Made by a program: the position numbers and the translations under genes
Assembly: GCA_025617745.1 (NCBI GenBank)
Contig: CM046853.1
Location: 2,414,873-2,478,872, forward strand
Direction: 5' to 3'
Source of the DNA: Heliocidaris erythrogramma
Taxonomy: Eukaryota > Echinodermata > Echinoidea > Camarodonta > Echinometridae
DNA length: 64,000 bases
Notes under the pieces: model-generated
Told to the model about the DNA's origin: nothing
Databases searched by the model: none
Seen by the model: only the letters and a program-made list of their open reading frames with translations
Shown: in pieces, positions 42,901 through 60,900 of the stretch
Layout of the letters: each line of letters begins with the position of its first letter
How positions within the stretch are numbered: the first letter of the stretch is position 1

Positions 42901-45900
42901 TGCTTGCATGTTGAACCAAAGTGGTAACATTTTGTTCAAATTTCAGAAAATAGGCTTCGTGTCAGTGCTCTTGGTGTTGTTGCATAACCACTTACATAAC
43001 CCCTAGGAGATTTTATTCCTGTTTTAAAGCTTCATTTTCCTGGAAATTGTATCTTTTGATTGTCTCTTGATCAGGTATCTTGGCAAGGAAAACCGAGGAA
43101 GATGCTTCAGATTTGCTGAAAAATAATTACCAGTACATCAGGTAAGCCTAACATACATTATTGGATTGGATGCATATTACAATTATTGATTCTAAGAACA
43201 AATCAATTTTCAGTTTATTATTACTACTACCTTTTTTTAGTAAGTTGTGTTGTGTGTTTATTGTATTACCTTTTCAGAGCGGTGGCTTGTAATCTCTATC
43301 CCTTTGAGCAGACCGTTGCAACACCTGATGTGTTCTGTTTTTATTGTATTACCTTTCAGAGTGGTGGCTTGTAATCTCTATCCCTTTGAGCAGACCATTG
43401 CAAAACCTGATGTAACTGTGGAAGATGCAGTGGAAAACATTGATATCGGTAAAATCATATGTCTTTATATTTTTTAAACATAACTTTATGGAAACAAATT
43501 AAATACCAATTTTTTTAGAAAAGTTATGTGATGAAGAAAGCTTTTAGTTCCTATTGCTTTACTAGTAGTTGAGAATTACTATATGACATTTTGAATGAGA
43601 CAGAAAATGGGGCAGTATATCAGGCAACTTGAAATGTGTTTATTATTCTAAGTTACTTGTAATGAAATGGAGGCCTCACTTGATCTTGAATGCAATCTAC
43701 TTCCTTTCGCTTCACTTACCTATCCAATAACAAGTGCCATTATTCTTTGCCAGAAGAATTCCCTCGGCTATTAAAAAATTGACCTTTTGACCCTGGCAGC
43801 CCTGCTAGCCACCTGGGAAACCCCGCACACTCGCGCTATAAGAATCCCCACATGTTATAAAACATCCTCTTTCTTTGCCGACGTGCCTTCACGTTCATTA
43901 CAGTGATTCCCTCGCGAGTTTTTTCTGGAATTTATTGGACTGTTACAAGGATTATTTACACTACCTTGCAAGAAATCCTTCGTAATTTCAGCTAAGTAGA
44001 CCTTTCTTGTTTCTAGTTTTCTTCTTAGTCGTAATTATGACGAAAGAAAACCTAACTTTAGCCGAGGCGCTCGATCAAGCCTCCTCTTCTTCCCGTTCGG
44101 CGCCGCGGTCGAACAGCAGCAGTGGAGGGAGAAAGCGGCCGTCTCAGCCCGGCGCTAACCCTCCGAAGGTTCCCCCTCCGAAAAAGACTAAAACGGGGGC
44201 TAAACCCAAAAACAAAAGCGAGGTCGATGGTAAACTGTCTACCACCTCCAAACATAAGTCCGATAGCCTGCTCGAGGTTGATGGTTCTAAAAAATTAACC
44301 ACCTCCATAGCTAAGGCTAGTGTTCAGCAGTCCGAGGTCGTGGGTGATAACAACACCCCCTCCGGCTCTGAGGCTCAGTCCCGAGTTACGGGACGTCAAT
44401 CGTTAGAACCCGAGCTCCCATCGGGAGCTCCGCAACGTGTAGTACCGGGCGTGGGTCCCGCTCTCGGGGCCCCGAGCTCGTCTCTTCCTGATTCCGCGGA
44501 GGCCTGCAACTTCTTTTTTCAGGCCATGTCAGCTTTCGCTCAACAATTCTCCGGAACCCTCCCTGCTCGGGCAGGGGATACGACAGGTTCGGGGAACTCT
44601 TCTCATGTTTTTTCAGCTACGCAGACCCTACCCGCAATCGCGGGTGATTCGACAGGTCCCCGTAGCTCTTCAGCACCGCATACCGTCTCGCGCCCCCCGC
44701 CAGACTCGCCGGAACGGGAGGACCTCCCCGCTCGGCAGGGGACGGTTCCCGCTGGTGGTAGGGAAGACTCCCTCCCCGCCAGGAAATCTCGGGATTGCTC
44801 TCGTCGTACCGATAAGCCCCGCTACCGTGAATCGGCTGATCTTGGGGGTCGGTCACATCCTGCTCCCGCTTCTATTCATTTAACCGAAGTGTCTGATGAG
44901 GAGCTTGGTTATCATCAGCCCCAATTGGCGTCACGTGCGAATAAATGGGGCGATGAGGGGGAAAGCTTTTCCCTGTATTCTGTGTCCGCTAGATCGGAGA
45001 ATTTTGGGAGTGTTAGAAGTTCTCAGTCACAAGAATCCACCCCAACCGAATACGAGCAGCGGACTCCCAACAAAGAGATTTTATCAGCGGCCGACTTGGT
45101 AATAAAATACTGCCCTCAACTAAAGTCTCAGTCGACCTCTCGTAGTGAGGATAACGAAACACAGCCTATATTTTGCATAGACTCAGAGTTGAAGTCTCCT
45201 GCTCAGAAGGGAAGTGCGGTGAAACTGGATGCCCCCTTCTCATCATGTTATAATAACTTAGCTGGCCGTTCTTACCATCTCCGTCCGTACCGCAAGGAGG
45301 TGCAAGCGGGCTATAGATTCGACAGCGGAGATTATGAAAAAATTTTTAGCACTCCGCGTATACCCGAGTCTGCTTTTCGCGTGGTAGACGCCCGCTCTCG
45401 GAAGAGCAAATTCAATCCAATGAGGAATCGCTCGTTCAAAAAGTCAGAAGATCGTCTGACATTCATTGATAGGGCAGCTCGCTCTTCTATGCGTCTGGCT
45501 GCGTACCAGAGTTATTTGATTACGGCTCTGCGCGAATCAGACCGCCTAGCTATTTCGGCAGAAGACCGAAAGAAGATCTCAGATTTGCTGCTTCGCACTT
45601 CTGATATGCAGTTTGAACAGGCTTCTCGTACGGCCCTACTTTGCACTAACCATCGCCGAGATAGAGTGTTAGAACATCTTAAGCTTGAGAAAGAAGCGGA
45701 TAAGGCTCTAAGAGAGCTTCCCCTTTCTGGACCGGATATTTTCTCGGGCAGACTCCAGGCCGTCCTGGACGAAAACATTTCGGCCTCGAGCACAGCCGCC
45801 AAAACGGTGTATAAACTCACCAAAGATGACCGTCATTCCCGCCAGTCGCCTCGGGACAAACAATTTCAGTCGGGTCCCTTTCGAGATGATAGAAAGTCTA

Positions 45901-57900: not shown

Positions 57901-60900
57901 AAAATAATATTTGTGGCAAATATAGTCTTAGTCTTGACTAATTGCCAAATAAAAACAAATAACAACAACCCACACATTAGCCTCTGTTTTGATAGTAAGT
58001 AATCACTACATCTAGGTCCATATATATGCAAGTCATGTGTTTAAGATACTGCTTTCTTTTCTTTTTCAGTATTCATGTTTGGCAGAGGTGTTTATCTTGA
58101 CAATTATGCACTTATCAAAGGACCTCAGTATATAGTAGTTTCATTATATAGTACTTTTCAAAAGTGGTAACCAACATAATGAAAATATCTTTTATGAAGT
58201 ACGCTCTCTTTAAATTCTAAATACTCTAGAATTAGAAAGCAATGGAAGAACAGATGAAAGAACTCTGATTCTTTATTTATTTATATTTTTACTTCACTTA
58301 TATTGTTTCACAAAATTGTTGGCCACTGATTGAAGAGCCATTTCATATTGCTACAAATTTGAATATCTCTCTCTCTCTTTTTCTCTCATTAGGTGGCTTC
58401 GTCATCACCCTAATGTGCAGACGATGAAGTTCAAGCCTGGTGTGAAGAGAGCTGAGATGTCCAATGTGATAGACGTCTATGTGAACGGAACTGTAGGAGA
58501 GGTGAGAAATGAAACACACAAAGATGTTTTAAATTTTGTAATGAATGAGGTTGTAAACTGCATAGACAATATTTATGTACAGTTAACTTTGCATAAGTCA
58601 GATCTGTTGGGACCAAAAAAGTAGTTCGACTTATGTAAAATTTGACTTGGGAAATGTAATTAACACATGTTTTGCATAATTTGGTCAAAAAAATTTATTT
58701 GACTTTCTGGGAAAATTCAACTTATGCAACTTCGAGTTAACTTTACATTCATAGATGCACCTTGGAAAGAATTGGGAGACCATTCAAGTACAGACTACTG
58801 AAAGTTGATCCTGTCAGAGTTTATTGAAATGTATCTAGTAGTATGTTATAAGATTTTGTCATCTTTTGACATAAACTGAAATGTACTGAAATTTATTTAT
58901 ATGTATGTTATTGATCATATAATTTTTCTCCCCTTGTAGGACATGAGCCGAGAAACTTGGGAAGGGATGTTGGAAAATCCTCCTGCCATGTTGACAGAGG
59001 TAAGCATGAAACTTTGATTCATGTTAACTTAAGCCAAATGCAAACAAATAAGTTTACAAAGGGATCACCTATAGCTTCAAGTCCATTGTGAGGACTAAGT
59101 TTGAAAGGATTGTCATTCCCAAGGGCCATTTACACTAACTTGATGTCAGTCTGGAACCCTCACAAAGACCAGTGCATTAACCAATTTGTCATTCAGTTTC
59201 CCTCACTTAGCTGACTGTGACATTCAATTATTCTCAAAAAAAACTTGCACTTAAAAAGCCGATTTTGAGTTCTTGTATTGGAACTGTGTTTTGAGAGAAA
59301 CTGGTTAAATGCTATTCTGGAATGTTTCATCATGCAGCAGAATGGTTGTTTTGTCTACCAAAATGTAAGCAAACTATCTAAATCTTTATGAAGTCCACAT
59401 TCATAAAATCAAAACACACATGCATATTCTAGTTGGTGACAGGCAGGCAGTCAACACAATCTTATCTTTCTTTGCTCATAATTAAGCCATTGTACAGTAA
59501 CAACAAAATTTGTTTGGCATATATCATTTATTTGTTGCAATGGACATTCACTGCCAATTTTATTTGATTCTCTAAACATCCACCTTTTTGGTGATTCCAT
59601 GCAATTTGTCCTGTACGACATTTGTATTTTATCCATATATTTCATCCGAAAATGAAGAATCTCTTGATATAATGACCATTGAATAGTGTTTCTTCCTGGG
59701 ATTGTTACCATTATTCACCATCATATATCAAGAGACTTATACATTTGTTATAAGGCATATGGGACATGTTGCTTGGACTTGCCCTTTTAATCACCAGAAC
59801 TCAAGATAAACTTTAATTTATAGAAGAAAACAACTGCTCTGAACGTAGTTCTGATCATTACAGTTCACGTCATCACGGTTTTAATGGATGTTTTGGATAT
59901 ATTGAAATTATATATGTTATGATATGTTGAAATTCCTGTCAAGATGTCAACTTGTTGCACTAGTCACTTTTTAATATACAACATATGTTTTAAATTATAT
60001 GCGTTTTGTCTCGTCATATGAGGTCGCTTAATACATGCATTGCAACGTTTATAACTTGTTATGATTCTTTCATATTCTATCCAGGCTGAGCGTAAGGAAT
60101 GGATCTCGCAACTAAGTGATGTTGCCCTAAGTTCTGATGCTTTCTTCCCATTCAGAGACAACATTGACAGAGCTCGTCAGGTATGCCATCAATACCTTCT
60201 ATCATAGATACCCTGATAATTTCAAAATTTGGGAAGAATGTCATTGTAATCTCAATCGATCATCCTGGAAATGATAATTGTGATTTAACACAAACTGAAA
60301 TATTATGTGGTATCTTTTAAATGAGAAACAAGTGAATTTGTGTATAATGTAGTCAGCCGCAATGTGCTTGTGCTGATTCCATAGGCCAGTTAGCACCGTA
60401 TCATCCTGCTATTAGCAAGATCAAAATGATCCTTAGAGGATTCATCAGGATAAAGCTTTATAATGAGGGTTCTGACATGTTTGATGTGTTAATCACCATC
60501 TATTGCATTTTAATTGTAGGGTGAATGTAACTACTGCTGCTCCAGTTCTGTAATATGGAATGATGCTGTTTGGGATTAACCTACCCATGCAACCACCATT
60601 TGTATTTATGTAAAGGCCTTTAGTCAGAAATAAACAAATTGTAATATGATGAAAGATAAATTGTAATGTTAAAACATTTTAACTAAATATTTTCGACATG
60701 CAAGGATTGACTATTTGGAAAGCTTCAGTTATCTTCGTATTGAAGTAGCTTGAATTAACCTTTTCTTTCTTGAGCCATCAGAATCTCTAAATATGTAATA
60801 TCAGCTTGTATCTTTACAGAGTGGTGTATCCTTCATAGCTATCTCCTCTAATCTCTGAATATCTATATCTTTACAGAGTGGTGTATCCTTCATAGCTAGT

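Follow-up and report, generated by a model that had tools for sequence, protein, structure and literature searches.

Partial tandem copies of unequal divergence beside five exons of the ATIC gene in the sea urchin Heliocidaris erythrogramma

The ATIC gene of the sea urchin Heliocidaris erythrogramma is accompanied by small partial copies of its own exons, most of which have carried a splice site along with them. The gene lies in a stretch of 64,000 nucleotides (the window; GenBank assembly GCA_025617745.1, contig CM046853.1, forward strand, positions 2,414,873 to 2,478,872), which is part of a 78.6-Mb contig (C1) in a genome of 1.06 Gb assembled in 26 contigs. A direct partial copy is present within ~350 bp at 5/16 tested exons, namely exons 5, 6, 9, 10 and 17, with offsets of 83, 23, 104, 105 and 57 bp respectively, and four of these five have a copied acceptor (exons 5 and 17) or donor (exons 6 and 9). 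Every copy is direct, local and partial, most extend across a splice site, and their divergence is unequal. We consider it probable, at roughly three chances in four, that they are ordinary and independent small tandem duplications that differ in age and have offsets of 23-105 bp, with splice sites that are by-products of the duplication.

The exons were placed by tblastn matching to a human ATIC protein sequence and the splice sites were fitted by eye. Exon 1 was not located, and the exons tested are therefore the 16 from exon 2 to exon 17. Spliced in silico, these join into an open frame of 585 amino acids, without a stop, through all 15 junctions, and the product contains the Pfam domains MGS-like and AICARFT/IMPCHase. 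A protein search of the whole genome at E values up to 10 recovered the exons of this gene and found no second ATIC in the assembly, the off-locus matches all having an E value of 0.3 or worse. The only partial copy that this search showed as a separate match was that of exon 5 (E 0.02), and a protein-level survey of other genes for partial copies was dropped as too insensitive for this reason.

To assess the copies at the nucleotide level, each exon was compared by Smith-Waterman alignment with 1 kb of flank on each side and with 60 Markov resamplings of those flanks. Exons 5, 9, 10 and 17 scored 62-134 against null maxima of 27-34. The copy at exon 6 falls inside the 30-bp pad and escapes this test, and was identified instead by Tandem Repeats Finder (TRF) and a tandem test, which recover a 23-bp unit present twice and identical across 50282-50330 with an exact run of 26 bp at a shift of 23. 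The remaining 11/16 exons had no direct copy over the null (scores <=24), and inverted copies over the null were found at none of the 16 (reverse-complement scores <=23). The original prediction, made from the letters of the window, had listed partial copies at five of 17 ATIC exons, most with a splice site. All five copies exist, four of them with a splice site, and the denominator is corrected to 16. The acceptor-bearing copy of exon 5, the 23-bp donor-bearing copy of exon 6, the diverged copy of exon 10 and the acceptor-bearing 57-bp period at exon 17 were each recovered as described (Table 1). Two extra copies of exon 9 are likewise present, but the donor said to accompany them is usable in copy 2 only, and a miniature inverted-repeat transposable element (MITE) that had been placed within copy 3 instead separates copies 2 and 3. 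The copy of exon 10 ends 8 bp before the donor and carries no homologous splice site.

Table 1. Exons of ATIC with neighbouring partial copies, and associated features (window coordinates; PWM, position weight matrix)
Feature	Position	Strand	Basis
ATIC exon 5, real	43360..43448	+	tblastn to human ATIC; splices in frame
Exon 5 upstream partial copy, carrying ~52 nt of exon and the acceptor (decoy exon start 43278)	43246..43331	+	93% identity with 43329-43413 across 86 bp
ATIC exon 6, real; donor at 50292	50213..50291	+	tblastn; splices in frame
Exon 6 donor-spanning 23-bp unit, second copy; decoy donor after 50314	50305..50330	+	TRF period 23, 100%
ATIC exon 9, real	51832..51939	+	tblastn; splices in frame
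Exon 9 copy 2: 3' part of exon, donor (after 52042), intron	52001..52084	+	84% to 51897-51985
MITE-like palindromic element, edges approximate	52089..52226	+	sits between exon 9 copies 2 and 3
Exon 9 copy 3, donor destroyed	52231..52285	+	77% to 51885-51940; PWM negative
ATIC exon 10, real	52593..52678	+	tblastn; splices in frame
Exon 10 interior, diverged partial copy	52718..52774	+	83% to 52613-52670; score 62 vs null maximum 27
Exon 17 upstream partial copy, with acceptor (decoy exon start 60820)	60809..60841	+	33/33 identical to 60866-60898, period 57
ATIC exon 17, real (final coding exon)	60877..60995 (range used ends two bases into stop codon)	+	tblastn; splices in frame

The copies range from identical to about 23% diverged, those of exons 5, 9 and 10 being diverged and those of exons 6 and 17 identical in their core. 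In the exon-derived halves, mismatches number 0/22 at exon 17, 3/52 at exon 5, 4/42 at exon 9 copy 2, 7/56 at exon 10 and 12/53 at exon 9 copy 3. This points to events that differ in age, and the copies look like several independent tandem duplications rather than one stutter of the assembly. The two events that look youngest are those at exons 6 and 17. The MITE-like element at exon 9 has many matches elsewhere in the genome, with identities up to 97% among the 40/1090 first-look candidates that were scored. It differs by 4-5% from five of seven other copies compared and by 16-24% from the other two, which are probably in the opposite orientation. A target-site duplication was not readable with confidence when the flanks were compared. 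With rates uncalibrated, the sequences suggest that the duplications at exon 9 predate the insertion of this element.

Several of the copied splice sites (decoys) remain intact, as judged by small position weight matrices built from ATIC itself. The acceptor decoys score 6.9 against 4.4 for the real site at exon 5 and 4.8 against 6.2 at exon 17, and the donor decoys score 7.3 against 7.3 at exon 6 and 8.6 against 12.0 at exon 9 copy 2, while the donor of exon 9 copy 3 (-6 to -8) is unusable. Scores of at least 8.6 occur at only 4/619 GT sites of the introns examined, a set that omits intron 5 and includes the exon 6 and exon 9 decoys. The suggestion that repeated micro-duplications seed decoy splice sites fits these observations, with divergences from 0 to about 23%, sites in 4/5 cases, and decoys at exons 5 and 6 that equal or exceed the real ones. 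Use of an alternative site was modelled for the decoys at exons 5, 6, 9 and 17 and for an unrelated GT after the exon 10 copy, and all five result in a stop codon, four with extensions of +82, +23, +103 and +110 nt and one with an extension of +57 nt that keeps the frame. In the copy of exon 5, each of the three mismatches within the 52-nt exon half alters an amino acid, as expected without constraint. So far, nothing in the sequence indicates a role for the copies.

The frequency of such copies in other sequence was estimated from exon-sized, single-copy segments, for which draws overlap and so estimate a rate rather than count independent events. A local copy was present in 59/1200 draws (exons included) from 20 other stretches of about 10 kb each, two flanking the window and 18 at round coordinates, in 21/900 draws from the introns of chaperone genes, and in 36/800 draws from the window outside the ATIC exons and their copies, which is an ordinary level. 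The background for single-copy segments is thus 2.3-4.9%. Unmasked, the values are 115/1200 for the other stretches and 81/900 for the chaperone introns. Local direct repeats, with transposon arrays and low-complexity sequence included, occur in 16/20 of the other stretches, and the open reading frames of these stretches in the coding-potential list are rich in repetitive, low-complexity frames. Draws from ATIC intron had a local copy in 35/400 cases over all intron and in 8/400 outside the named repeats.

The same test was applied to eight chaperone genes in nine regions, using 70 stretches as matched by tblastn, without trimming to the splice sites. It flagged 4/70, of which 2/70 are real exon-edge copies, both on other chromosomes. 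In CCT4 (L039:1788-2120) a partial copy of the acceptor end lies upstream of its exon, with at least one further partial copy beyond it as judged by eye, and this is the clearest parallel to ATIC. In CCT8 (L034 with L035 appended, 4753-4811 and 5257-5315) a donor-spanning copy lies 504 bp downstream and contains an in-frame TAG as read from the alignment. Two flags were dropped: that in CCT5 is a borderline AT-rich match (score 36), mostly intronic, and that in TCP1 is an intron tandem array reached via a read-through match. The 2/70 of the chaperone sample equals the background rate, and the sample therefore shows no enrichment at exon edges.

Under the explanation that we favour, each duplication would arise by slippage or short-homology repair, as do most short insertions in other animals, and the process would be a genome-wide background. 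Because the unit (offset 23-105 bp) and the exon (mostly 60-130 bp) are similar in size, a unit touching an exon would almost always take in an edge. A duplication within an exon would in most cases disrupt the reading frame and be purged, and one crossing an edge would be tolerated, as the original exon and one splice site survive and the surplus copy may decay in the intron. The splice sites within the copies would be by-products, and they are probably mildly harmful or neutral because their use would give premature stops.

Certain observations weigh against an ordinary background process as the whole account. Relative to both the chaperone sample and the background, ATIC is an outlier: 5/16 exons compare with 2/70 for the chaperones (Fisher p 0.002, or 0.005 with 3/70) and with a pooled 3.8% (59/1200 and 21/900; nominal binomial p 2.5e-4), or with an unmasked 9% (p 0.011), all of these statistics being post hoc for a gene chosen for its pattern. 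The window contains 24 local repeat pairs, from which the permutation omits the simple or transposon-like ones (about 24.0, 31-33, 49.1-49.5 and 53-54 kb) and exon 9 copy 3. Random placement of five spans in the gene outside the named repeats then puts a mean of 1.4 on exons (P(>=5) 0.0015), and placement over the whole window, where two more duplications outside repeats are added, gives P 4e-5. Draws from ATIC intron outside both the named repeats and the copies had an above-threshold local copy in 0/400 cases. Nor can the enrichment be put down to slower decay of exon-derived copies, one copy being constrained. This cause is not supported, as the intron halves are not consistently more diverged: they mismatch at 2/29 (exon 5), 5/42 (exon 9), 17/37 (exon 10, where the intron half is barely alignable) and 5/36 (exon 17), and the corresponding exon and intron halves in the chaperones mismatch at 13/47 vs 8/55 (CCT4) and 10/39 vs 10/36 (CCT8). 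The presence of five copies in ATIC is partly chance and partly the reason that the gene was noticed, and their clustering is not fully explained.

This excess over a background of ~4%, together with decoys that are intact and strong at exons 5, 6 and 9 and with a stop after every modelled use, would be accommodated if ATIC were a local hot spot, or if the decoys were kept for an unproductive 'poison' splicing that tunes the level of the enzyme. We regard this as unlikely. Stops are weak evidence, as random frame shifts give them too, and the stop at exon 17, being in the last exon, would not be expected to trigger nonsense-mediated decay. The donor of exon 9 copy 3 has been lost, the exon 10 copy brought no homologous splice site, and the copies are unlike in both their ages and their arrangement. 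Elsewhere in the window the level is that of ordinary background, and the gene was selected because of the pattern. The stronger proposition, that the decoys divert some ATIC transcripts to unproductive splicing and that repeated micro-duplication was gained and kept as a ready-made means of tuning the expression of a purine-synthesis gene, would have to be judged very unlikely from the sequence at hand.

It is also very improbable that exon edges are favoured for small duplications throughout the genome through a mutational bias at splice junctions. ATIC itself and the cases in CCT4 and CCT8 would fit such a bias, but the chaperone exons, a small sample from one protein family, have edge copies no more often than single-copy sequence elsewhere, and unmasked random non-exon segments of the same chaperone genes, taken with wider flanks, had a local copy in 119/700 draws. 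The hot spots at exon edges beyond ATIC that the original prediction implied thus did not appear in this sample. An assembly artefact, either stutter or merged haplotypes, had also been raised and is likewise very improbable overall. Echinoderms are highly heterozygous, and in the identical repeats of 23 bp (exon 6) and 33 bp (exon 17), which may be artefacts, sequence alone cannot separate copy from stutter. Against this account, the copies at exons 5, 9 and 10 have diverged by substitutions and indels, a transposable element separates exon 9 copies 2 and 3, the intron halves upstream of exon 17 differ by an 11-bp gap in addition to their mismatches, the search of the assembly yielded a single ATIC, haplotypes merged in assembly should double longer stretches, and similar diverged copies occur in CCT4 and CCT8.

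Other repeated sequence was observed in and around the gene. Intron 5 contains a retroelement with inverted terminal stretches (43700-49495), the open reading frames of which match reverse transcriptase and an RNase H-like domain, with tyrosine-recombinase domains only below Pfam cut-offs, and which we take to resemble a DIRS-type element. Intron 10 has a repeat at 53195-54140 that is rich in TAGTTGCCAACTAG-like motifs and contains a 181-bp tandem duplication (98.5%). Minor intronic tandem repeats detected by TRF (41814-41841, 50558-50612 and 58125-58157) are not among the above-threshold local repeat pairs. Upstream of the exons placed for ATIC there is a 361-bp tandem duplication (39171-39895, identity 98.6%), and a perfect 60-bp tandem duplication lies outside the gene at 11599-11720. 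Elsewhere in the assembly, two similarly arranged CCT7-like copies are ~155 kb apart on contig C16 (34.90-34.91 and 35.06-35.07 Mb, match positions only). A mitochondrial COX1 match on the 12.9-kb contig C24 (stretch L041) has 11 TGA codons and no other stops, which fits the echinoderm mitochondrial code, and AAA codons fall at what are presumably conserved asparagine positions.

The ATIC copies provide in-place examples, of visibly different ages, of small tandem duplications that place competing splice sites beside real ones, and such copies could be a source from which alternative splice sites and shifts of introns arise. The chaperone edges, at which copies are no commoner than in single-copy sequence elsewhere, suggest that a striking pattern in a single gene need not be a genome-wide rule. 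For gene annotators, copies of this type are likely to confound both the prediction of exons and the mapping of reads. The titles and abstract openings of the best literature matches contain no report of duplications at exon edges in either ATIC or echinoderms.

Several known systems resemble this arrangement in part. In tandem exon duplication with mutually exclusive exons, on which there are reportedly papers concerning U2AF1 and OGDH, exon-like copies also lie in introns. The ATIC copies differ in being partial and, as modelled, frame-breaking or stop-bearing; they lack the pair of splice sites and compatible open frame of a cassette exon, with a stop at each of the five sites, and in their present form could not act as cassette exons. 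An accepted route of intron gain is the duplication of exonic splice motifs in tandem (PMC3443670, PMC2891723), and there too duplication multiplies the splice signals of a gene. In the AGGT route, however, an exonic segment is duplicated to give a new donor-acceptor pair, whereas in ATIC an existing edge is copied to give two competing donors or acceptors. As far as the sequence goes, no intron gain of this kind is seen in ATIC, the copies being within existing introns and the 16 exons giving one open frame. Intron sliding via nearby cryptic splice sites (PMC2891723) is similar in that an extra site near a real one could let the boundary move, but no shift is seen in ATIC, where a single frame runs across every junction. 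A further likeness is with tandem duplication of short stretches as the chief origin of small insertions, a subject on which a study of flies and primates (PMC2374710) cites Messer and Arndt (2007). In that study, short insertions are mostly tandem duplications, and these, like the direct neighbouring copies found at ATIC exons 5, 6, 9, 10 and 17, are local, direct and adjacent copies of short stretches. The ATIC case differs in that its offsets are probably longer than most of the short indels that have been studied, and in that five occur at the exons of one gene. Most likely, the ATIC copies are a known kind of small duplication, unusually many in one gene, and their splice sites are by-products.

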